This document shows, piece after piece, positions 2,684-28,236 of a stretch of 28,236 nt of DNA. Each line of letters opens with the position of its first letter. Position 1 is the stretch's first letter. The notes under the pieces were generated by a model. The model was not told the origin of the DNA, ran no database searches, and saw only the letters and a list, made by a program, of their open reading frames with translations. The DNA comes from a virus, in IMG/VR virus record IMGVR_UViG_3300022693_000624, positions 1 through 28,236 of that record. One strand, 5' to 3'. The translations under genes were made by a program, and so were the position numbers.

Positions 2684-3028
2684 ATGAAGATAGGCGTAAG
2701 TTTGAATTTAGATGTAATGAAGATAGACAAGGCAAGACTGGTTGCCGGGAGTAAAGGCACGTACTTAGATGCCACCGTGTTTATAGAGATCGATATAAAA
2801 GACCAGTACGGCAACAGCGGCATGATCACTCAGAACGTAAGCAAGGATGAAAAAAACAACGGCATCAAAGGAAACATCCTCGGAAACTGTAAGGTGTTCT
2901 GGTCTGACACGCAAAGAAATGAAGCTCATGCTCAAGGTCATGCGCAGGTTGCTCAAACCGTAGCCCCTCAAGCTCAGCAGCCACCGCCCCCAGCAATAGA
3001 TAATTTTGACGATGACATCCCGTTTTAA
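2684..3028 (+). CDS. Single-stranded DNA-binding protein with SSB-type acidic tail
   Basis: 114 residues. Residues 1-80 are predicted beta-rich, consistent with a small OB-like fold (repeated hydrophobic strands such as YLDATVFIEIDIKD). Residues about 83-103 are a Gln/Pro/Ala linker, and the end, DNFDDDIPF, is the classic SSB C-terminal tip that docks partner proteins. It starts 3 nt after the erf stop, so the two are co-translated; SSB and annealase partnering is common in phages. It lacks obvious sequence similarity to E. coli SSB in the N-terminal domain, so the call rests on tail, size and context. Confidence 0.8.
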   Translation: MKIGVSLNLDVMKIDKARLVAGSKGTYLDATVFIEIDIKDQYGNSGMITQNVSKDEKNNGIKGNILGNCKVFWSDTQRNEAHAQGHAQVAQTVAPQAQQPPPPAIDNFDDDIPF

Positions 3029-3036
3029 CTTAACAG

Positions 3037-3490
3037 CCATACCCAAAGGACAGAAATGAAAACTTTAATTATTTTAACTGTAGCACTTACCATTCTTGTA
3101 ACTGGCTGCGAGCGTGATGCGCAAACGGCCTCTCGCAACCTCTCAAAGGCTGGCGATATGTTCGAGATACAAAGGCGCATTGTTTTTTACAACGGCATAA
3201 ATGGTGAGTACATGCTGACTGTTGAGGGTAGGTGCTCAATCAAGGATAGCAATCGACAACTTGAGGTTACATGTAAGACCGGGCCTAAAGCTTTCAAGAA
3301 GCACTTCTTGGGGCTATCTGACAATGTCACATATTTTGCTGAGCAATTAGGCGCAATAAAGGTCAGTACGTACCATAGCCGCATTATCTGGAAGCCTCAA
3401 AGCATCATCCCGAATATTGATGTAAACGCCTCGTCTTCTGATTTTGTTGAGACTATGACCAAGTAAACATCCATAACCATACCCAAGGAC
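3037..3490 (+). repeat. Short direct repeats flanking the lipoprotein gene
   Basis: CCATACCCAAAGGAC (3037-3051) lies just before the lipoprotein gene and CCATACCCAAGGAC (3477-3490) just after it, differing by one A. The repeats include the ribosome-site core AAGGAC. The unit bounded by the repeats is about 440 bp and contains exactly one gene. Confidence 0.6.
3056..3466 (+). CDS. Phage lipoprotein (beta-sandwich type)
   Basis: 136 residues with a signal peptide (MKTLIILTVALTILVTGC) and lipobox LVTGC, Cys18 being the lipidation site. The mature part has a predicted short helix, then beta strands (RRIVFYNGINGEYMLTVEG, residues about 41-59) and conserved-looking cysteines at 61 and 73. It resembles proteins annotated in enterobacterial phages as 'beta-sandwich lipoprotein', for which an outer-membrane, superinfection-related role has been suggested by analogy with other phage lipoproteins; I cannot confirm that. 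The ribosome site is AAAGGAC. The gene is flanked on both sides by nearly identical 14-15 bp sequences, so it may be a removable accessory gene. Confidence 0.75.
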   Translation: MKTLIILTVALTILVTGCERDAQTASRNLSKAGDMFEIQRRIVFYNGINGEYMLTVEGRCSIKDSNRQLEVTCKTGPKAFKKHFLGLSDNVTYFAEQLGAIKVSTYHSRIIWKPQSIIPNIDVNASSSDFVETMTK

Positions 3491-3509
3491 GGGTAGAGGA
3501 GAGTGAATA

Positions 3510-3593
3510 ATGTTTGAAACAATAGCGGTATGTGCATTTACGGGCGCGGTATTTTTAGTGATGGGCGTATTGATGAGTAGACGCGATGTCTAA
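3510..3593 (+). CDS. 27-residue single-pass membrane peptide
   Basis: MFETIAVCAFTGAVFLVMGV followed by LMSRRDV: one hydrophobic segment (residues about 5-22) with a positively charged C-terminus, which predicts the C-terminus in the cytoplasm. The upstream AGAGGAGAGTG gives a good ribosome site, and the stop overlaps the YbcO-like gene by 8 nt. No function recognised. Size and topology fit small phage membrane effectors, but this is inference. Confidence 0.55.
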   Translation: MFETIAVCAFTGAVFLVMGVLMSRRDV

Positions 3594-3879
3594 ACTAACT
3601 AAAGCAGCGAGGGGGCAAGAATGCACAGTACAGCTATATCCATATTGCAACGGAAACACAGAAACGGTAGTACTTGCTCATGCGCCTTGTGAGGATAAGG
3701 GAATGGGTTTTAAATCCCCTGATTGGTGGGGCGCTGATTGCTGTAGCGCTTGCCACGATATTATTGACGCGCGCACCCGTGTGGCTGATATTCCCAATAG
3801 TGAAATATATAGACGTGTTATATGTGGCGTATACCGAACGCTTAAAAGGCGCATAGAGCAGGGTGTAATTAAAATATGA
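3586..3879 (+). CDS. YbcO-like (DUF1364) nuclease-domain protein
   Basis: 97 residues beginning MSKLTKAARGQECTVQLYPY, the characteristic opening of the lambda YbcO/DUF1364 family (PF07102). Likely metal ligands are Cys13, Cys21, His32, Cys35 and the CCSACHD motif at 52-58. The family has a zinc-stabilised HNH-like fold and is found in the nin-type recombination regions of lambdoid and P22-like phages, where it is thought to act as a nuclease. Here it is followed by a RusA-like resolvase, matching that context. It is coupled to the following gene by an ATGA overlap. Confidence 0.85.
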   Translation: MSKLTKAARGQECTVQLYPYCNGNTETVVLAHAPCEDKGMGFKSPDWWGADCCSACHDIIDARTRVADIPNSEIYRRVICGVYRTLKRRIEQGVIKI

Positions 3880-4148
3880 TTGTTATCGAACTACCTTTTC
3901 CGCTGCCAACGTGGAATAGATTACTTGGAATGAACTGCTGGGAGAGAAAGAAATTAATAGACTTAACACACCGCATGACCTTGTTGTGCACTCAGTACGA
4001 AAAAGACTCGCAGACATTGACGGTATCTCCGCAAAGGCAGTTATTGATGGACTCATACATGCCGGGCTACTTGTTGATGATTCGGCCGCGTTCATCAAAA
4101 GCATCAGGTTCACCCAAGAAAAGGGCAAGGTCGAGAAGACGACGCTGA
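3876..4148 (+). CDS. RusA-like resolvase, N-terminal half (frame A)
   Basis: The 90-codon frame starts at ATG 3876, overlapping the YbcO-like stop as ATGA. Residues 1-37 (MIVIELPFPLPTWNRLLGMN, then WERKKLIDLTHRM) look like a RusA N-terminus: a first beta strand, Pro-rich turn, Asn, and basic helix. From about residue 40 the frame becomes low-quality and ends in a run of Arg, which is what the antisense-like overlap with the real C-terminal frame would give. The conserved RusA aspartates are missing here and found in the -1 frame from 3986. Either a -1 frameshift joins them, or the gene is broken, or these are two separate genes. Confidence 0.6.
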   Translation: MIVIELPFPLPTWNRLLGMNCWERKKLIDLTHRMTLLCTQYEKDSQTLTVSPQRQLLMDSYMPGYLLMIRPRSSKASGSPKKRARSRRRR

Positions 4149-4168
4149 CTTTTACGGAATGCAAATGA
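3986..4168 (+). CDS. RusA-like resolvase, C-terminal half (frame B)
   Basis: The frame is open from 3920 after a TAG, with the first usable start at GTG 3986; no ribosome site is obvious there. The product carries the RusA catalytic signature: RKRLADIDGISAKAVIDGL with Asp residues spaced as in D-x-D/N-xxxK, then AGLLVDDSAAFIKSI with the paired Asp, then a final strand. RusA enzymes are homodimeric Mg-dependent Holliday-junction resolvases using these acidic residues. Without the frame A half the protein would be only 60 residues, about half the family's usual 120. Its stop overlaps the next ATG (ATGA), so translation through here seems to matter. Confidence 0.6.
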   Translation: MHSVRKRLADIDGISAKAVIDGLIHAGLLVDDSAAFIKSIRFTQEKGKVEKTTLTFTECK

Positions 4169-4332
4169 AAGTAATTGATAATAAAGCATTTAAAACCGGC
4201 GAGGTTATACGCGTGAATTCATACCGTACTTGGATTGTGAAATGGCACAACGGCGATCGGTGCGGGCTAACTCCGCTGGACAGGAAAGAGAAATTTTATG
4301 GCAAGCCAAGATACGAGGTGATAGATGATTGA
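4165..4332 (+). CDS. 55-residue hypothetical protein
   Basis: Starts ATG 4165 (an in-frame ATG at 4159 is an alternative) and ends TGA 4330-4332, overlapping neighbours by 4 and 8 nt. Contains strand-like stretches (GEVIRVNSYRTWIVKWHNGD) and a basic, aromatic C-terminus. It looks like a compact beta-barrel of SH3 or KOW size, but no family is recognised. Confidence 0.6.
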   Translation: MKVIDNKAFKTGEVIRVNSYRTWIVKWHNGDRCGLTPLDRKEKFYGKPRYEVIDD

Positions 4333-4648
4333 TTTAACAGATGCAGAGAAAGCTTTAGACTTTTTAAAGAATACAGACAAGGAGTGCGCAAGATTAAAGG
4401 CTCGTGCCACCGCTCTTGATGGCATGAAGAAGTCCGTTGTGGCCCTACTGTATAACGAGATAGAAAGCGGTAGTGCTGCTGACAAGCTAAAGAAGTCTGA
4501 GGGGCATCCTGACAATATCGCGCACCTAGAAAATCTTAGGCAAGCAAACGAAGAGTTTCATAGCATGAACAATCAGAGGCTTACCGCATCAACACAGATC
4601 GATATGTGGCGTTCGGTTAATTCAAATCAAAGGAAGGGCAATATTTAA
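4325..4648 (+). CDS. 107-residue coiled-coil hypothetical protein
   Basis: Almost entirely helical and charged, with AEKALDFLKNTDKECARLKA near residues 7-26 and a second helical stretch ending in an IDMWRSVNSNQR motif (about 92-103). This resembles small conserved proteins in recombination/replication regions of many siphoviruses and podoviruses whose ends contain a similar '...E.WR..... R' helix. Function unknown. The ribosome site is GAGGTG just before ATG 4325, inside the preceding gene. It follows the recombination genes and is probably expressed with them. Confidence 0.75.
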   Translation: MIDLTDAEKALDFLKNTDKECARLKARATALDGMKKSVVALLYNEIESGSAADKLKKSEGHPDNIAHLENLRQANEEFHSMNNQRLTASTQIDMWRSVNSNQRKGNI

Positions 4649-4649
4649 C

Positions 4650-5246
4650 ATGAAGTATTTATTGGTATTAATTTTAGTGACTCTAATTAGTTGCGGTAAA
4701 AGCTCAACGACAAATCAGAATGTTGCGACTGTAGCTCCTGTAGAGCCAAGCAAGACGTATTTAATCACCGGGCAATCCAACGCTTTACGCTGTGATTGGT
4801 CGTACTTTACACACACTTACGGTCATGATGTTTATATGATTGCAGAAGGCGGCGCACCGATTAAGCGACTAATCAATAACTACAATGGATTGAGCGGGGA
4901 ATTTGCAGGGATATTCTTTATTCACGGTGAGTCTGATGCGGGCAATAAAAAAGATCCGAATGTTTACGTCAGCCAGAGTATAAATTACTTCAGCAAAATC
5001 TATAGTGATATAGGCACGGTCCCGGTCTACATATCAACAGTTGGCTATCACAAAAAAGCACAGCCGGAACATTACGACGCGCTAAGAATTGCAATGAATG
5101 AAGAAGCAGAAATAAATGATCTATGGACGATAGCTTTCGACGATGCTCAATCATTCCCTGATCGAGACATGCTGACCGATAACGTCCACTTCACCCCCGA
5201 AGGTTGCAGGGAAATGATGGACAACTTCGCGGTTAGTATTCGTTAA
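4650..5246 (+). CDS. Lipoprotein SGNH hydrolase, sialate O-acetylesterase-like
   Basis: 198 residues. Signal peptide with lipobox LISC (Cys15) followed by a Ser/Thr/Pro linker to about residue 35. The catalytic domain shows TYLITGQSNA (GQSN at 41-44, Ser43 the likely nucleophile), FIHGESDAG (92-98, the GES-D/oxyanion block) and DNVHFTPEG (Asp177 and His180, the final DxxH block). These are the SGNH/SASA (PF03629) blocks in order. Members remove acetyl groups from sugars. Lipidation would anchor it in the host envelope rather than in the virion. Its 3' end overlaps the tailspike 3' end by 14 nt on the opposite strand. Substrate is inferred to be a surface polysaccharide. Confidence 0.85.
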   Translation: MKYLLVLILVTLISCGKSSTTNQNVATVAPVEPSKTYLITGQSNALRCDWSYFTHTYGHDVYMIAEGGAPIKRLINNYNGLSGEFAGIFFIHGESDAGNKKDPNVYVSQSINYFSKIYSDIGTVPVYISTVGYHKKAQPEHYDALRIAMNEEAEINDLWTIAFDDAQSFPDRDMLTDNVHFTPEGCREMMDNFAVSIR

Positions 5247-7602
5247 GTTCTGCAACCCAACTTACGGAAGCAGTATCACCCGCCGCGAAATTGCCCCCGT
5301 CCGAGGTCTGAATGCCTACAGTGAATCCCGTGGCAGATATACCCTGATAAAAAGTATTGTATGGGTCACCGCCAACGTTAGCCCCCTCGCCTGTGATTTG
5401 CACGTTGGGGTTTTTACCAAATCCGGTAGGCAAAACTACAGCGGTAGTAAATACATCGCTTGAGTTCGTCACAGTTATAGTCTCAGTTCCCGCAACTCTC
5501 AATCCTCGGATTTTAGTTGTAACACTACCCGCACCTGCAACGTACAAAGTCACACCCCCGGGGTCTACATTGGAAAACTCTGCAAATTCTGGATCGTCAC
5601 CAGTACCAGCATCAAAATCGATTATCTCACCAATATTTGGCGCGTTTAGCTTTAGATCTCTAAACGATATGCCGTATTTATCGCCAGTGTAGCCGCGATT
5701 TTCAAACCGTACAAAATCGCCTGTAGCATTTGGCGCGTTGATTTGCCCTGATATTCTAGTGACTCCACCGTACAATGTATTTGCATCTAAAACTGACCCA
5801 ACTTGATTGCCTATATCGATAAGCTGCCGACCACTACCCATGTTTACATCGCTGTAATAATTAACAACAGTATCAGCAGTGCCTAGTATGTGATCAAATC
5901 CCGATAGCTCAAACGGCGTATAAATAGGCGCGATAGTTGCTAAAGTTGGCACATTAATACTCCCGCCCTTAAAGAAAAACTGATTGCCGGAATACCCAAC
6001 GCCACCGCCGTAAACATGCACGTTATCCATTCCGCAACCTTCTTGCGCACCGTGAACATTTGCAGCATTAACGTTTAGCAGCGATAAATTACCCGTACAT
6101 GTCGAGTTGACCCATGTGCAGCTTATACAGATCTTTCTAATGCCGCCGGTTACAACCCCAGATACTGGCCCGCAATCTATACCATGTCTAAAGCCTGTAA
6201 AATCCCCGCTCGCTGTGCACTTATCAGAGCTGTTAAATCTAAAGCCGTAATTAGTGTTGAATGTATTTATGTCTGTAACTTGTTTAGTACCAAGATTTGT
6301 ACCATGCAGCTCGTAGCACATGTCAAATGTCATTGATGTATTATCTGAACCACCACAATCAACGTTATCGATAGCGCCCCGGCAATATCTAAATGAGATA
6401 TCAGTAGCCGAATTGTCAGATACATTATTACCACCCGCACCTATAACGCTAAAGTTTTTCCAATACCCATCAGCTATAGCGACAATGTAAACTATAGTTG
6501 GCGATGAACCATAACCTAACCTGAGCCCATCCCTAAGTGTCACAGTCGAACCTGAGACCGCGTCAACGACCTGAAATTCACCCTTCTGATTTTGCACTCT
6601 AAATCCGGTGTAGCTAAAATCAGTTGGATCATGGAGAAGTATTAGATCTCCAGCAACCAAACTCGGCGACGATGTTAATTCAATCGATTTATCACCGGCC
6701 GATGCTGATACGTTCAAACTCTCGATTTGCGTTACACCTGCACCCTCAATGGTTAAACACGCTTGATTGCTGATAGTTCCCGTTGCAGCGCTAAAGTCAA
6801 AAACAGCGTCGTTTAAATCAATATTCCAACGAGATCCGTCAATTATAACTTCAGCATCAAAAGCGTAAGTGGCTTTCTGGCCTCGGATAATTCCCGTGTT
6901 TGCGTCGAGGAATGTTTTCATGCCTGCAAATGCAGAGGAGTTTGCCGTACCTGTGGCAGATTGGAATATCCCGAAGTCTTCTAAATAGACTTCATCTCCA
7001 TCTCTCACACGCACCCATGCACCAAGCCCTCCCGTGATATCAGAGTTTGACGCGACATATTTCCCGCCCTGAGGGTCAGATGTGACCTCTGCCGTTAGGT
7101 TGGTGGCAGACCAAACAAAAGGCCCGCCGCCACCATTAAACCCGGCTAACCTAACCGCTACATTAATGGGGTCGTTATCTTGCAGCTCAGCAATGATAAT
7201 AGCGCGAAATTCTATATAGTCTGCAACCCCGGTATTGCCTAGCCGGTCCTCTACGGTAGCTGCCGAGGTGTACGAAACATCGCTAGCATCAATAAACCCA
7301 ACGTTATTAGGCACATAGTAAACTTGCTTGCTGCTTGAGTTTAAAACCTTTATCGCAAAGGCTCCGTCAACCAATATTCTTACAGGGGAGTTTTGATACA
7401 TGACAACGCCGCCCGCACCCGTTCTCAATGGCTGGCCAACATCAACACTAGAGCCGTCTTGCAGTAAGAGCGTGACTTGCTTCTGATTTGCCGCTATCTC
7501 TGGATCTTCATCGGGTTCGCCAACAAATACAAAGCCGTTAAAAACAGGCCTGCCTTGTGTTGGATCTGGGAAATATTCAATGCCTAAAAATACCGCTGTC
7601 AT
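5233..7602 (-). CDS. Tailspike, P22-type head-binding domain and beta-helix
   Basis: 789 residues, a homotrimeric receptor-binding spike by family analogy. Residues about 1-110 match the P22 gp9 head-binding domain: FPDPTQGRPVFNGFVFVGEP, then DPEIAANQKQVTLLLQDG, VGQPLRTGAGGVVMYQ, and VRILVDGAFAIKVLNSSSKQ. A linker domain follows (GGGGPFVWSATN, about 156-167), then a long Gly/Asn/Ser-rich series of short strands typical of a right-handed parallel beta-helix (about 190-690), and a C-terminal beta domain. The body likely binds or cleaves host surface polysaccharide, though catalytic residues cannot be assigned. The ribosome site is AAAAAGGG before ATG 7602. It is last in the late gene order, as in P22. 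Confidence 0.93.
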   Translation of the reverse strand: MTAVFLGIEYFPDPTQGRPVFNGFVFVGEPDEDPEIAANQKQVTLLLQDGSSVDVGQPLRTGAGGVVMYQNSPVRILVDGAFAIKVLNSSSKQVYYVPNNVGFIDASDVSYTSAATVEDRLGNTGVADYIEFRAIIIAELQDNDPINVAVRLAGFNGGGGPFVWSATNLTAEVTSDPQGGKYVASNSDITGGLGAWVRVRDGDEVYLEDFGIFQSATGTANSSAFAGMKTFLDANTGIIRGQKATYAFDAEVIIDGSRWNIDLNDAVFDFSAATGTISNQACLTIEGAGVTQIESLNVSASAGDKSIELTSSPSLVAGDLILLHDPTDFSYTGFRVQNQKGEFQVVDAVSGSTVTLRDGLRLGYGSSPTIVYIVAIADGYWKNFSVIGAGGNNVSDNSATDISFRYCRGAIDNVDCGGSDNTSMTFDMCYELHGTNLGTKQVTDINTFNTNYGFRFNSSDKCTASGDFTGFRHGIDCGPVSGVVTGGIRKICISCTWVNSTCTGNLSLLNVNAANVHGAQEGCGMDNVHVYGGGVGYSGNQFFFKGGSINVPTLATIAPIYTPFELSGFDHILGTADTVVNYYSDVNMGSGRQLIDIGNQVGSVLDANTLYGGVTRISGQINAPNATGDFVRFENRGYTGDKYGISFRDLKLNAPNIGEIIDFDAGTGDDPEFAEFSNVDPGGVTLYVAGAGSVTTKIRGLRVAGTETITVTNSSDVFTTAVVLPTGFGKNPNVQITGEGANVGGDPYNTFYQGISATGFTVGIQTSDGGNFAAGDTASVSWVAELNEY

Positions 7603-17384: not shown

Positions 17385-17478
17385 TTAATATTCCTCGTCG
17401 TGTCAACGATAATCCGCATGTACCCATACGTAGGTGCGCTCTATTTTCCCGTAAAGCATCGGTAATGTGATTTTACTA

Positions 17479-17507
17479 TTGATAAGAATTAAAAGCAGTG
17501 TTAGAGT
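17479..17507 (+). promoter_or_regulatory. Sigma-70-like promoter of the reversed cassette
   Basis: TTGATA (17479-17484), 17-nt spacer, TAGAGT (17502-17507): 5/6 and 4/6 matches. It lies 40 nt before the first cassette gene at 17548, reads rightward into it and lies outside any coding region (the 163-bp gap 17385-17547). Confidence 0.6.
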
Positions 17508-17547
17508 CCCTTTTGCAGTCACCAGAATCACCAGAGGAGTTAGAGTA

Positions 17548-17880
17548 ATGTGTACCTATACAGCAAAAGACTTTAGACAAAAACACACTGCCAAGGCATA
17601 CCTTGAGGCCGCCACAGGCCATACGGTTATTATTAACAACGATAGATATAAGGGGTTAGTGTTTGAGCTGACCGCAAGACCTAGAGACCCATTGAAGGGC
17701 TCTGTAACAGTGTGCGGGGACGTGGTTGTTGATAATGATGGAATATATCACCAAGGGGAGCTGAAGGAGGGTGAGCTAACGCCGCTTTATAGTTTTGGCG
17801 ATTCCACAATCGAGACGGTTGGCGAAACGGCATTCGAAAGAGGTGAGGATTCAACTAACGGGGAAGAAGGCAATGATTAA
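17548..17880 (+). CDS. Reversed cassette gene 1, hypothetical (110 residues)
   Basis: Starts at ATG 17548, chosen because AGAGGAG lies 9 nt upstream; the frame is open to 17467 but without a ribosome site. Product begins MCTYTAKDFRQKHTAKAYLE, has strands around GHTVIINNDRYKGLVFELTA and GSVTVCGDVVVDNDG, and ends acidic. It would be a small soluble alpha/beta protein. No family recognised. Overlaps the next gene by 8 nt. Confidence 0.65.
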   Translation: MCTYTAKDFRQKHTAKAYLEAATGHTVIINNDRYKGLVFELTARPRDPLKGSVTVCGDVVVDNDGIYHQGELKEGELTPLYSFGDSTIETVGETAFERGEDSTNGEEGND

Positions 17881-18274
17881 TCTAGACGAGCTGGAAATAG
17901 TAAAGCAAATAATTGGAGACCTAAGCGGTGTAGGTATATGGGCAATGTTGGGCTTTATCGCCTACAAGCTGCTAAAGATCATATTCACATTCTGGGCTGC
18001 TATATGGCTTGTGAATAAGGTTGTAACAAAGTGGTTCGAATACATTAAGTCACCGCTCAATAAGAAAGAGTGCGAGGCCCTTGTAGATAAAGAGACGGCA
18101 CTATTGAAAAGACTTGATGCTTCTGAATACACACTATCAAGCGCTAAGAACGTGCACACACAGGAAATGGAAGCCCTCAAGATAACCATGCGTAATGTTA
18201 GACAAGAGGCGCAAATTAAGGTGGATCTATACAAGCACAAGTATGAAGTTATGACTGGTGAAAAGGATGCATGA
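17873..18274 (+). CDS. Reversed cassette gene 2, membrane plus coiled-coil protein (133 residues)
   Basis: Start ATG 17873 with GGGGAAGAAGG upstream; a longer frame to 17795 would lie inside gene 1. Residues about 19-48 are hydrophobic with two possible membrane passes (GVGIWAMLGFIAYKLLKIIF, then TFWAAIWLVNKVV). The rest, about 60-133, is a charged helix with ALVDKETALLKRLDASEY. The topology resembles holin-like or phage membrane effectors, but it is far from the lysis genes. Confidence 0.65.
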   Translation: MINLDELEIVKQIIGDLSGVGIWAMLGFIAYKLLKIIFTFWAAIWLVNKVVTKWFEYIKSPLNKKECEALVDKETALLKRLDASEYTLSSAKNVHTQEMEALKITMRNVRQEAQIKVDLYKHKYEVMTGEKDA

Positions 18275-18536
18275 CGGGCTTTTCGGAATTGGGCAGTTCT
18301 TACAGGGCGCGGCAGGCCCAGCAGGGAATGCCTTTAGGCGGGAACAAATGGCCGCAACTTATTGCGGACAGGATCAGGCAGCAGCTCTAGGAGCCGAGCA
18401 AGCAATGAGGGCGGGATCAGCAGGGCCAATGTTTGCCCAAGCTCCCCCAGAATCAAAGCTAGACATTCACTACAGAATGTCTACTCCAGCCTCGCTAGAT
18501 AACGACTATAAGGAGTGGAAAGACGATGCCAGTTAA
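18267..18536 (+). CDS. Reversed cassette gene 3, Gly/Ala-rich hypothetical (89 residues)
   Basis: Start ATG 18267 (GTG 18258 is an alternative); it overlaps gene 2 by 8 nt. The product MHDGLFGIGQFLQGAAGPAG... is rich in Gly, Ala, Gln and Met up to about residue 60, then ends with a conserved-looking YRMSTPASLDNDYKEWKDD. Low complexity; no family recognised. Followed by an 11-nt overlap into gene 4. Confidence 0.5.
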   Translation: MHDGLFGIGQFLQGAAGPAGNAFRREQMAATYCGQDQAAALGAEQAMRAGSAGPMFAQAPPESKLDIHYRMSTPASLDNDYKEWKDDAS

Positions 18537-18720
18537 AACAAGCAGGATACTATTAGGCGATATCAATGGCGAGGCTGTCTATGCTATCGGCCCATACGCT
18601 CAGAGAATAAGCGATATAGTTATGTCTCAGGCTAAGGAGATTAGAGAGCTTAAGGAGAAAGTCGTACTAAAGATGGCAAAAGATTTCGATAATGTATTTG
18701 ATGGTGAATATAGTGAATAA
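18526..18720 (+). CDS. Reversed cassette gene 4, hypothetical (64 residues)
   Basis: ATG 18526 with AAGGAG 10 nt upstream. Product starts MPVKTSRILLGDINGEAVYA, then a helix (SQAKEIRELKEKVVLKMAKD) and an acidic end. It looks like a small dimerising coiled-coil protein. Function unknown. Confidence 0.6.
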   Translation: MPVKTSRILLGDINGEAVYAIGPYAQRISDIVMSQAKEIRELKEKVVLKMAKDFDNVFDGEYSE

Positions 18721-18883
18721 ACACGAAAGAACGCTATGGATTTTAAAGCTAGAGAGCGAACACATAAAGCAAAAGAATGAGGGCAAAATGAGGAATGAGG
18801 CCTACAGGCGCACTGAGCGTAGAATTGTAGAAGCGGCGCAAATGGCCTGCCTTATACAGAGAGTGATGGTGCCAATACTATGA
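18713..18883 (+). CDS. Reversed cassette gene 5, basic helical hypothetical
   Basis: Probably starts at GTG 18713 (GGTGA 7 nt upstream; ATG 18701 or 18692 are alternatives) and ends 18883. Product begins VNKHERTLWILKLESEHIKQ and is a mostly charged helix with RRTERRIVEAAQ and a hydrophobic end. Overlaps neighbours by 8 and 4 nt. The positive charge could suit nucleic-acid binding or an inhibitor role; neither is shown. Confidence 0.5.
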   Translation: MNKHERTLWILKLESEHIKQKNEGKMRNEAYRRTERRIVEAAQMACLIQRVMVPIL

Positions 18884-19095
18884 TTGAATATAGAGTTATA
18901 TCAAACGATTGCCCGAGGAGCCTTGACCATTCCGTGAACGAAGCCATCAAGGATGGGTGGCGACCTATTGGAGGAGTCTCTACAGCTGTACGGAAGGCCG
19001 GGTGGCAGCAATACTGCAAGATGTACCAAGCTATGACAAGGGACTGCGACGCTGTAGAGTTGACGTTCATGGATATCGATAATGATGATAAGTAA
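18880..19095 (+). CDS. Reversed cassette gene 6, DUF1737-like protein
   Basis: 71 residues: IEYRVISNDCPRSLDHSVNE, AIKDGWRPIGGVSTA, then YCKMYQAMTRD. This matches the DUF1737 (PF08410) layout of 'Y.vv....p..Le..Vne.l.eGW.p.GGvs......yyQAM...'. These small proteins are widespread in phages and bacteria without known function. ATGA overlap with gene 5. Confidence 0.75.
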   Translation: MIEYRVISNDCPRSLDHSVNEAIKDGWRPIGGVSTAVRKAGWQQYCKMYQAMTRDCDAVELTFMDIDNDDK

Positions 19096-19255
19096 GCCCC
19101 ACATACAGTGGCACCAACCTTCAAAAAGATGGGCCTGCACGTCCTCAACCATTAATGTAGGCGGAAAGACTCCGATAGAAGCGTACAACTCATGGCGATA
19201 TCATCGCCGTCGTCGGGCAGAAAAAAACTACCTACTAACCCACAGCACCTCGTAA
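19082..19255 (+). CDS. Reversed cassette gene 7, short Trp-rich protein (57 residues)
   Basis: ATG 19082, overlapping gene 6 by 14 nt (second Met at 19085). Contains QWHQPSKRWACTSS and GKTPIEAYNSWRYHRRRR, the pattern of small phage proteins with a short beta hairpin holding a Trp/Cys and a 'TP..AY..W' helix. Its 3' end overlaps the portal 3' end by 21 nt on the other strand. Function unknown. Confidence 0.55.
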   Translation: MMISKPHIQWHQPSKRWACTSSTINVGGKTPIEAYNSWRYHRRRRAEKNYLLTHSTS

Positions 19256-24064: not shown

Positions 24065-24369
24065 ATCATTTTACTCTCGCTGCCAGTTGGCCCGCTTCTA
24101 ATGCTTGATTTTGATCCTGTCTGCCCATCACTTATTGCACTTACTGAGCCAAAGTCCTGCTCTATTAGGCTAATGCTCGCAGATATCGCTGTAGATATTG
24201 ACGATATAGAGCCTGTAGTGTCTCCATTGATAGTGCTTACTGACCCAAAAGGAAGGCCGGGGGTTACAGTTATTGCCGATGTTGCGCTATGTATGGTTTG
24301 AAATATGCCTCTAATTGCATACTTTATGCCCCCTACAAAACCTGCCTTACCGCCTCGCCAATTAATCAT
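24061..24369 (-). CDS. 102-residue protein with 11-residue Gly/Ser repeats
   Basis: N-terminal 40 residues MINWRGGKAGFVGGIKYAIR... then about five 11-residue units of the form G-S-x-S-x-I-x-x-x-x-T from residue 42 to the end (GSVSTINGDTT, GSISSISTAIS, GSVSAISDGQT, GSKSSIRSGPT). This could be a thin beta-solenoid or a flexible spacer. It overlaps both neighbours by 4 nt, so it is made with the fibre-like protein. Confidence 0.6.
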   Translation of the reverse strand: MINWRGGKAGFVGGIKYAIRGIFQTIHSATSAITVTPGLPFGSVSTINGDTTGSISSISTAISASISLIEQDFGSVSAISDGQTGSKSSIRSGPTGSESKMI

Positions 24370-27300
24370 GTGACAGTCTGGAACGTAATGAAAGTATCGT
24401 CAGCAGTGCCTGAGATAAAGCGCCAAGTAATTACATCACCGTTTGTATCAGCGGCCAATGCGTCAAATTGATATATTCCATTACTTACTTCTGCAATCGT
24501 GCCGCTCACACCTGAGAACGCACCACCGTTAATGCTCTTCTGCCCTGTTACTGTTAGACCTGTTGCCGGGGTTACATGATCACTAGCAAGAACCATCAGG
24601 AATTCAAAGTTAGAGAACGCTTGATTCTTCGTAATAGACAATCCGCTTATCTGAGCTGGTAAAGTTGTGTTTGTATCATCAAAAATATTAGCTATCAATC
24701 CTTGAGTGATCGTAACTGCTCCACCTGAATTATCAATGACATCAATATCACCAGCGTATAAGAGTGTGCCGCCTGTACAGTTAGCATTTATAGTAATAAC
24801 ACCATCCCCGTACACGCCCGCTACGTTCCCAGATACCATATTTTGAAAATCTACTTCGCCACTCATGCCGGATATTTGGGCAACTACTGCTGCGTCATCA
24901 AAATCTAACACACAGTTTCTAGCAAATAATACAGTCAAGAAAACCTGTATGTCAGGTGTTGCTATCGTCAATGTGCTGTCAATCACAACGTTCAAGTAGG
25001 CCACTGTAGCTCTTACTGTGACGTTAGCCATGACTGTTTCTTTAAACGCTAAAGGCCTTGCTGTGCTTGGAGTGCCTGTATCCCCTGCGACTGTAAGATT
25101 TGTAAACCGTGATCCTGCGACATCCTGACCGTTAAGAAGCACTGTCCCACCCGGCCCGGTAAATGACCAATCTGTATACGCCTCATCTAATGATATTAAC
25201 GATCCTTCTTTAAGTCTGTAGGCCTGCAATCCTTCACCGACCGAATCAGCAATAATTCTAGCCGATGCAATAGTACTTACTGCTTGATCGCTGGTTCCAT
25301 CCACGTAAGGCACTGTCTCAGTATTACTACCATTAGTATTAAGAAATACCTGTCCGTCAACATACCCCTGAAGGCCGGGACGGTTAATATTAGCCAATTC
25401 TGTAATATCGATAGCGCCGCCGCTATTGTCTACACGACGCTCGAAAATGCCGCGTATGTTTATGGACCCACCTGTTCCATTCAATGTGACCGTTCCGCCA
25501 ATTCCCTCAAGAGTTACAACGTCTCCGGCCTGCATATTCGTGAGTGTAATTCCGCCCTGCCACCCTCTAATAGACAAGTTTATTGCTCCAACAGCTGCCC
25601 CAAGATCAATAGTTGGAGCGCCTGAGCCAGCAACGAGAGAATCACAGTTAATTAATCCGTAATCGCCAGGGGAGCCCAGTGTTAATGTTGTAGCAAATCC
25701 GCTATTGCTGTTTATTTTACAGGGTGGAACTGTTGTGTTAAAAAATGTGCAATGTTCAAATCTAGGGAATGACACTCCTGTGCATATGCCTGAAACTGTG
25801 GAACCCTCAATAATCGAAGCAGAACAACTTTGCCCGCCTAACTCTAATGTCCAATTATCGCCCTGCCAAGACTCATTGTCGTGCGATTCCAGCCACGTTA
25901 TTGTTGATCCATTAATTACATGGAATCTATGAAGTCCAACGTTAGACGCAATGGTGATCGCGTCCGCTAAGTTATCCACAGGGTTGTCGGCGGTGCCATT
26001 AACAAATGAGGCGGTGCCAGAAGTCCCGGTTAGAGTGTCTATCCATACTGAGCCATCTGCATAACCCACAGACTGGAACACAACAGCGTAAGACGTGATA
26101 ATTCGATCGACTCTTAATGTTGCCGAAGTAAGTCCCGTGCCTTCAAATCTAATTCTTACTTTTCCTAGATTAATACCCGTTCCCGTATGCCTTACGAGTA
26201 AATCAGGTGTTAGTGACGTATCTGTAGAACCGTTTGTACCTGCTAGTGAATCGACAACATCCCAAGATGCGCCGCCCCAATCAAATGCGTAAACAGTCAC
26301 AGCGTCATTACTGCCGTTGATTCTCACGTCTATTTGCGTACTAGAGGCTGTGCCGTTTCCCGTCACATCAAATTGATAATAGATATCGATAGCGCCAGCC
26401 GTATCAGTATGTTCGTGATAAACACCATCAATTGTGGCAGTGTCGGAGAATGTACCGCTAGATTGAACACCTGTTGTTAGTACGTAACTTTCGGCTTGAA
26501 TACTAATTGCGCTAGATCCCGATGAAATGAGGCCTACCGAGGTTTGAACGTTTGCTATATCAGTAGATATATCAGCTGCAACCGGTGGCCCGATTCTTAC
26601 AAAGTTGTCGCCAGTTTGCGGTATGCCGAGCTGCCCAGTGTCAATTCTTGCAGCATCGATCAATACAATACCTGTTGGCAGTGACCCGGTTAATCTCATT
26701 TGACCGCTTACAATTACTGTAGCAGTTGTAGCCGCATCTGTTAGCGCTAATGAACCTCGACCACTTACTGTCACATTTGCAGCGTCATCAAGATTAGATA
26801 GATCAAGACCTCCAGCGTATTTAGTAAATGACAAGCTAAGCCCAACGACATTATTTGCATCTATGCCGGGATTACCAATGCCGGGCAGCGTACTGTCACA
26901 ATCCCTGAAATTAGAATTACCTGTTAATGTAACGCTCGGATTTTGAGGGAGTGTACACAGTTGGAAAAACCCCTCCGTAGTGAGCCCCTTTAATGAACAT
27001 TGTGTTGCGTCAATTTCACCTACAAACACACCCTCCAACTGCATATTTAGGAATACAGCCCCGTCTGTTGACTGCCCATTTCCGTTGACCGTTCCGCCGA
27101 ATACGACAGATACAAACTGCCAATTGTCGTAATTTTGATCAAGTGTTAGGGCTGTGGTAAATCCCTCAAGGACATATCTATTAAATCCTAGAGCATCCGC
27201 TAATATCCTAGCATCCACAAGATTGTTTGAGGGGTTACCCGGCGTTCCGTTTAGCCCTATATCAGTGCCGGGAACCCCGTTTTCAGTGTCGATTGTAATC

Positions 27301-28236
27301 GCGGCTAGGCCGTAATTTCGTTGAGGGTTTGCATTGTTTAACACGTCTAAGAAGTCGCCCAGAGTTACACCGGATTTAATCCAGTTAACATGGGTAACAT
27401 CTATATTCCAATCATCGCCAGCGGCCACTTTGCCGGATACGGTCAAATCATAAAGGAACCGTATCCTCACATCACCATCAACACCGGGCGTTCCTGCTTG
27501 ACCACGCCTAACATGACTATCTGTTAAGCCTAATGTGATGTCGTTTAAAGAGCTTGCAGTGTTTTGCACTCCCCCTCTATTTTCGTATGCGTTTTGGTTA
27601 AAATTAAACGCTTGGATTTGCAGTACGCGGCCCTTACCCGAATCAAAATTGGCCACCATGCTAAGGCTTGAGGGTATTTCGGAATCAGTGCCGATATTAA
27701 AGATAAGCTCCGCATCTATACCACCAGCAACGGATGTTAGTGTCCAAAGAGTCCCGTCTTGCAGCAGAGTATTAGCCGATGTGCCTGTCTGTGTTCCAGT
27801 CGTCACCACGTCAGATGTGCGACCTTGCTCAACTGGGTTTTGGCTTTCTTGATTGATAAGTATAGTGTCTAGCTTGTCATCAAGTGCGCCCAGCCCATCA
27901 GTACCATTTGCTAAGTCTTTGGCCGCTGCACTCGCATCTAAACTAAACTTAAAAGCCGTCTCACCAATAACACTGACGCCGCTTACCTCACCGGCAGAAA
28001 TAACCGCCTCATAAAAGCTGCCAGACTGGAACCCGTTGCCGCCTGTTGCCACGATAGTAAGATGGTTTAATCCGGTTATGCTGTCAAAATCAACAACTAG
28101 GGTTATACCTGCCGTGATCTCTGTTGTGCTGTCATCTTCATAAACGACAACCACCGGGGTGTCCTCAAGTGTCGCCGGGATGCCCGTTGCAAACTCACGC
28201 GATGGGAATTTATGATAAATTGTATCGCCTACCTCA
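24366..28236 (-). CDS. Giant modular beta-helix fibre-like protein, 5' end outside window
   Basis: The frame is open to the right edge, and the GTG at 28154 is internal: 27 codons upstream encode VGDTIYHKFPSREFATGIPA..., an N-terminal module common in phage structural proteins. At least 1289 residues. Numbering from the GTG: N-terminal sandwich 1-75, a second sandwich about 120-255, beta-helix module A 290-505 (GVPGTDIGLNGTP), a jelly-roll-like domain 550-690, beta-helix modules B 697-920 (DGSVWIDT...) and C 930-1160 (DGQVFLNT...), and a C-terminal domain with GLTVTGQKSINGGAFSGVSG. The three beta-helix modules share 'PV.NLADA..IA...GL' phrases and are tandem duplicates. A tail fibre or receptor-binding role is likely. 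Confidence 0.8.
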   Translation of the reverse strand, partial: EVGDTIYHKFPSREFATGIPATLEDTPVVVVYEDDSTTEITAGITLVVDFDSITGLNHLTIVATGGNGFQSGSFYEAVISAGEVSGVSVIGETAFKFSLDASAAAKDLANGTDGLGALDDKLDTILINQESQNPVEQGRTSDVVTTGTQTGTSANTLLQDGTLWTLTSVAGGIDAELIFNIGTDSEIPSSLSMVANFDSGKGRVLQIQAFNFNQNAYENRGGVQNTASSLNDITLGLTDSHVRRGQAGTPGVDGDVRIRFLYDLTVSGKVAAGDDWNIDVTHVNWIKSGVTLGDFLDVLNNANPQRNYGLAAITIDTENGVPGTDIGLNGTPGNPSNNLVDARILADALGFNRYVLEGFTTALTLDQNYDNWQFVSVVFGGTVNGNGQSTDGAVFLNMQLEGVFVGEIDATQCSLKGLTTEGFFQLCTLPQNPSVTLTGNSNFRDCDSTLPGIGNPGIDANNVVGLSLSFTKYAGGLDLSNLDDAANVTVSGRGSLALTDAATTATVIVSGQMRLTGSLPTGIVLIDAARIDTGQLGIPQTGDNFVRIGPPVAADISTDIANVQTSVGLISSGSSAISIQAESYVLTTGVQSSGTFSDTATIDGVYHEHTDTAGAIDIYYQFDVTGNGTASSTQIDVRINGSNDAVTVYAFDWGGASWDVVDSLAGTNGSTDTSLTPDLLVRHTGTGINLGKVRIRFEGTGLTSATLRVDRIITSYAVVFQSVGYADGSVWIDTLTGTSGTASFVNGTADNPVDNLADAITIASNVGLHRFHVINGSTITWLESHDNESWQGDNWTLELGGQSCSASIIEGSTVSGICTGVSFPRFEHCTFFNTTVPPCKINSNSGFATTLTLGSPGDYGLINCDSLVAGSGAPTIDLGAAVGAINLSIRGWQGGITLTNMQAGDVVTLEGIGGTVTLNGTGGSINIRGIFERRVDNSGGAIDITELANINRPGLQGYVDGQVFLNTNGSNTETVPYVDGTSDQAVSTIASARIIADSVGEGLQAYRLKEGSLISLDEAYTDWSFTGPGGTVLLNGQDVAGSRFTNLTVAGDTGTPSTARPLAFKETVMANVTVRATVAYLNVVIDSTLTIATPDIQVFLTVLFARNCVLDFDDAAVVAQISGMSGEVDFQNMVSGNVAGVYGDGVITINANCTGGTLLYAGDIDVIDNSGGAVTITQGLIANIFDDTNTTLPAQISGLSITKNQAFSNFEFLMVLASDHVTPATGLTVTGQKSINGGAFSGVSGTIAEVSNGIYQFDALAADTNGDVITWRFISGTADDTFITFQTVT

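Follow-up and report, generated by a model that had tools for sequence, protein, structure and literature searches.

The window, by which we mean the whole 28.2-kb stretch of DNA analysed (28,236 nucleotides), is the partial genome of a P22-like phage that is a distant relative of Salmonella phage P22. Its minus strand encodes P22-type terminase, portal, scaffold, coat, head-closure, ejection and tailspike proteins. The coat protein shares 68% identity with a counterpart from a Pseudomonadales MAG and 63% with that of Pseudomonas phage AH02. From position 1883 onward, the plus strand carries a tightly packed string of genes led by erf (1883-2680; Pfam ERF, 3.6e-10; phrog_155, 1.5e-15) and an ssb-like gene for a small protein (2684-3028; weak phrog matches, and 69% identity over 74 aa to a counterpart in L028). 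The string continues through a VG64-family ORF with a lipobox, a YbcO nuclease, pieces of RusA and small ORFs, and its last gene (4650-5246, plus strand) encodes a predicted lipoprotein of the SASA (SGNH) type, hereafter the esterase. This gene ends 14 bases inside the tailspike gene on the opposite strand (5233-7602, minus strand; Head_binding, 1.7e-10; TSP_Ig-like, 4e-9; phrog_13768, 5.6e-26), such that the two lie tail-to-tail with overlapping 3′ ends. The P22 Head_binding and TSP_Ig-like domains confirm that the esterase's neighbour is indeed a tailspike, as the original prediction had stated. Among the scanned ORFs of this incomplete contig we identified no integrase or repressor, and Rfam found no family in the window.

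Several other ORFs of the window deserve mention. The VG64-family ORF (3056-3466, plus strand; Phage_VG64, PF25682, 2.6e-51) is the second ORF of the string with a lipobox (LVTGC); PHROGs names its family (phrog_478) a recombination directionality factor, and its Vibrio phage homologues bear the annotation membrane lipoprotein. The RusA-like resolvase (3876-4168, plus strand) appears to be divided between two reading frames (3876-4148 and 3986-4168), the second of which matches phrog_34; the division suggests a frameshift or an assembly error. Upstream of the terminase genes, a 1262-aa ORF (24366-28154, minus strand) has no match in Pfam, PHROGs or NCBIfam and is partly like the viral contig L002. 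The roughly 1.8 kb between the scaffold and portal genes (17385-19234) contains small ORFs only, and the three tested have no PHROGs match.

The esterase ORF is intact: opened by an ATG and closed by a TAA, it specifies 198 aa. Read in its own frame it scores +0.10 bits per codon, and the remaining five frames give -0.10 to -0.37; the score is below those of erf and ssb, yet coding-like in its own frame alone. The purine-rich stretch AAAGGAAGGG precedes the ATG, and a single base separates the start from the stop of the 107-aa ORF directly upstream (4325-4648, plus strand), which matches no Pfam or PHROGs family above cut-off. We found no promoter above chance in 3400-5500. Residues 1–15 (MKYLLVLILVTLISC; 4650-4694) form a lipoprotein signal with the lipobox LISC, in which L12, I13 and S14 precede Cys15 (4692-4694), leaving CGKSS as the mature N-terminus. 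Read by eye from the sequence, the signal peptide MKYLLVLILVTLIS followed by C, together with its lipobox, is that of a bacterial lipoprotein.

SASA (PF03629) is the single Pfam family matched by the ORF (E=6e-7; 29.7 bits against a cut-off of 24.8), over residues 75–194. The match excludes block I, and the GQSN motif was tied in by a separate home-made SASA profile and an alignment. This profile, built from bacterial SASA proteins, picks up the esterase at GQSN and again in its C-terminal part; against a second home-made SASA profile the esterase scored 19.6 bits, where the highest-scoring of 500 shuffles reached 9.7. Shuffling the mature protein 200,000 times never produced the ordered trio of motifs, and a family test with hhalign returned E=3.8e-5 at a probability of 71%. 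We then aligned the esterase with four bacterial SASA proteins, drawn from 342 genomes of a Pseudomonadales order, to which it is 20–25% identical. GQSN, A65, G68, G93-E94, P125, D177 and H180 are invariant across the five sequences. Profile, alignment and motif positions place block I (GQSN, residues 41–44) at 4770-4781, with Ser43 as the predicted nucleophile, and the alignment places block II (AEGG, residues 65–68, including the invariant A65 and G68) at 4842-4853, block III (HGESD, residues 92–96, including G93-E94) at 4923-4937, and block V (DNVH, residues 177–180, including Asp177 and His180) at 5178-5189, all on the plus strand. The predicted catalytic triad is Ser43-Asp177-His180. At position 92, a histidine replaces the glutamine of the aligned family members. 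Blocks I and II are separated by 20 residues, a distance far longer in the aligned bacterial homologues, which marks the esterase as a compact and divergent SASA member. Elsewhere, NCBIfam and PADLOC gave no match for the ORF, PADLOC indicated no role for it in a defence system, PHROGs offered a marginal tail-fibre match (E=0.058), and two AlphaFold runs on the single sequence reached pLDDT values of 33 and 32, too low to yield a usable model of the three-layer alpha/beta SGNH fold. The claim that the SGNH/SASA blocks are intact behind a lipobox thus holds, with GQSN, HGESD, DNVH and LISC all in place, and the above-threshold PF03629 match and the retention of every catalytic block support the SASA-type signature. 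These features predict that ORF 4650-5246 encodes a SASA-type (SGNH) carbohydrate esterase.

Relatives of this protein proved elusive. Tblastn recovered no esterase homologue from phages or plasmids, and still none from phages at E=10. Scanning viral and genome contigs with the single sequence, a method sensitive to close relatives only, found none either. Protein searches covered about 1,000 genomes in all. In the 342 Pseudomonadales-order genomes they gave seven weak matches (best E=0.0075), which we rejected as homologues: six of the seven loci were inspected and all lack the catalytic motifs. No homologue emerged from 369 genomes of the class holding that order, where an empty answer proves little, or from a protein search of 346 Photobacterium-order genomes. 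When DNA was scanned for the compact spacing of GQSN, GESD and DxxH, with a separate scan for each glycine codon, 12 stretches came back and none was a SASA ORF. A looser HGESD scan returned 17 stretches, mostly of one unrelated protein; one hit, in L048, is a large SASA protein with a different block spacing. SASA was also absent from 21 portal-related viral records, three prophage-bearing genomes and ten related phages, and the family-wide SASA alignment was too diverse to serve for a collection scan. Because no homologue was found in the collections searched, conservation cannot back the function of the esterase.

The position of the gene offers a different kind of clue. In all five temperate P22-like phages that we compared, a hand-picked set, the tail-to-tail neighbour of the tailspike gene is a modifier of the receptor glycan: gtrC (of gtrCBA) in P22, gtrC in epsilon34, oac in Sf6, an O-antigen modification gene in HK620, and neuO in CUS-3, where it is annotated only by a repeat domain. 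The esterase occupies the same place, in the same orientation, as gtrCBA, oac and neuO, that is, the tail-to-tail position of a conversion gene. Because the comparison phages were picked by hand, the argument is suggestive rather than statistical. In Skarpretter, a virulent relative, the genes leading to the tailspike are erf, ssb, an endonuclease and a regulator, a layout very like that of the window minus the esterase. In the nearest metagenomic relatives (G004, G006 and G008), the slot is filled by lysis, unassigned and NinG-like genes. By analogy, the slot is suggestive of a receptor-glycan role, with the esterase standing in for a transferase. The original prediction had cast the enzyme as an alternative to acetylase-type seroconversion, and the five-of-five occupancy by receptor-glycan modifiers makes this analogy stronger than first thought; the unrelated slot genes of Skarpretter and the nearest relatives, and the lack of a promoter above chance, count against it.

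We tentatively favor a reading to which we give somewhat less than an even chance: the esterase may be a periplasm-exposed lipoprotein O-acetylesterase of the infected cell that alters an envelope glycan, most likely the receptor of the adjacent tailspike, thus cutting superinfection or aiding the release of progeny. The locus displays an intact gene, a family signature, a lipobox, operon-like packing and a place beside the tailspike; from these we infer esterase activity, substrate, topology, timing and an effect on adsorption. The gene is probably co-transcribed with the erf-led recombination genes during infection. Its product would be exported, acylated at Cys15 and tethered to the inner or the outer membrane, the catalytic domain lying in the periplasm. 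During or after export, O-acetyl groups would be taken off an envelope glycan, most likely the polysaccharide recognised by the adjacent tailspike, and fewer acetylated receptors could then mean less wasted re-adsorption and superinfection, or easier progeny release. The SASA blocks, the lipoprotein signal and the slot support this role, as do the phage SASA/SGNH esterases that act on receptor glycans and the parallel of T5 Llp. Against it speak the unrelated slot genes in Skarpretter and in G004, G006 and G008, the lack of a promoter above chance in 3400-5500 and of an integrase or repressor among the scanned ORFs, the empty homologue searches and the want of a usable structure model. A bolder version of the proposal, which we consider rather unlikely, is that the protein acts as an enzyme-type superinfection-exclusion lipoprotein: stand-alone, membrane-anchored and made early, it would strip acetyl groups from the glycan to which the phage's own tailspike binds during the lytic cycle, the chemical reverse of oac/neuO conversion.

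The topology of the protein bears on the choice of substrate. Lipoproteins of the inner or the outer membrane normally face the periplasm. The mature esterase starts with CGKSS, placing glycine at +2, lysine at +3 and serine at +4. Under the E. coli rule a +2 glycine points to the outer membrane; +3 lysine and +4 serine have been suggested as inner-membrane signals, though not absolute ones, in P. aeruginosa (PMC6469965). The esterase could accordingly be sorted to the outer membrane by the first rule or to the inner membrane by the Pseudomonas rule. Of the earlier proposal that it is anchored in the host envelope, the predicted anchor is supported by the LISC lipoprotein signal, and a location at the surface is an assumption, as CGKSS fits either membrane. 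A periplasm-facing enzyme would not quickly change acetyl groups already at the surface, which argues against the receptor-glycan role; a periplasmic esterase would fit newly exported glycan better than surface glycan.

This topology gives rise to the main rival substrate, peptidoglycan, which a periplasm-facing membrane lipoprotein would reach directly. In Gram-negatives, O-acetylation of peptidoglycan takes place via PatA/PatB (PMC12148441), and periplasmic removal of the MurNAc acetyl groups would let phage or host muramidases and lytic transglycosylases cut, aiding DNA entry or lysis. We nevertheless judge this unlikely: the gene belongs to the erf-led strand rather than the late one, the window's lysis-like gene (DUF5675, 793-1188) has no muramidase family match, and the tailspike-side position would be a coincidence. 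The slot and orientation shared with gtrCBA, oac and neuO would also suit lysogenic conversion proper, in which a prophage-expressed esterase permanently alters the surface glycan of the lysogen, as gtr or oac does. That the incomplete contig shows no integrase, repressor or promoter for the gene itself, and that the distance between stop and start points to a transcript shared with the erf string, makes such conversion quite improbable.

Two further readings carry a slim chance each. The NanS-p proteins of Stx phages are SASA esterases encoded beside toxin genes, outside the tail (PMC10462455), and the window's enzyme might likewise be metabolic cargo that deacetylates environmental sugars for host nutrition; its lipoprotein anchoring, its lack of NanS-p accessory domains and its place next to the tailspike all speak against this. 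Alternatively, its SGNH domain might be inactive, or might work with a host protein of the MBOAT or AT3 kind as an acyl carrier or acyltransferase. MBOAT/AT3 acyltransferases with SGNH partners are known (PMC12148441, PMC7448272), and the esterase is divergent, with His92 for the family glutamine, but every catalytic block is intact and the family matched in Pfam is one of hydrolases. We rejected the reading of the esterase as a virion tail part in view of its stand-alone ORF, its lipoprotein signal and its location on the strand opposite the tail genes.

In the part of the literature that we searched, we found no account of a SASA esterase that is a stand-alone lipoprotein and occupies the P22-like tailspike slot. 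The elements are already known separately: phage SASA/SGNH domains as virion parts or NanS-p, exclusion lipoproteins, and conversion genes in the slot. If the receptor-glycan reading is true, a glycan-trimming enzyme, and not transferases alone, can occupy the site beside the tailspike in P22-like phages, and the themes of the exclusion lipoprotein and the glycan-modifying conversion gene are joined in one small protein. If the substrate is instead peptidoglycan, the protein would assist phage lysis or entry in an unusual way.

With the SASA esterases (PF03629), NanS and NanS-p, the esterase shares the GQSN block, the Ala/Gly of block II and the G-E and D..H blocks; it differs from the bacterial SASA/NanS proteins in being compact, at 198 aa, and a lipoprotein. 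Phages that target Vi (Vi06, Vi II-E1 and Vi01) bear a SASA domain in their tail proteins. The SGNH fibres of Klebsiella prophages are active esterases, and gp63.1 of G7C deacetylates LPS (PMC13123978). Common to these and, putatively, to the esterase is a phage-borne esterase domain tied to receptor polysaccharides. Theirs, however, are virion tail parts, whereas the window's esterase has a gene to itself, carries an export signal and is encoded on the strand opposite the tail genes. Another phage pairing of a glycan lyase with an esterase occurs in Pseudomonas phage AH02 (L024), where, at 34306-36594, an Alginate_lyase2 gene (1.3e-18) is followed by an annotated esterase with no Pfam match, upstream of the holin. 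The P22-like gtrABC genes (P22, epsilon34), oac, neuO and the HK620 gene lie tail-to-tail with the tailspike as the esterase does, but these genes add groups or change polymerisation, whereas the esterase is predicted to remove acetyl groups. P22 gtr and Sf6 oac also have annotated promoters, in contrast to the esterase, which is packed into an erf-led string without a promoter above chance. T5 Llp is a superinfection-exclusion lipoprotein encoded next to the gene for the receptor-binding protein (PMC9586334). Like the esterase, Llp and Cor are phage lipoproteins, in their case for superinfection exclusion, and Llp shares with it a location beside a receptor-binding protein gene. Llp is not an enzyme and blocks a protein receptor by binding it, whereas the lipoprotein of the window is predicted to be an enzyme.
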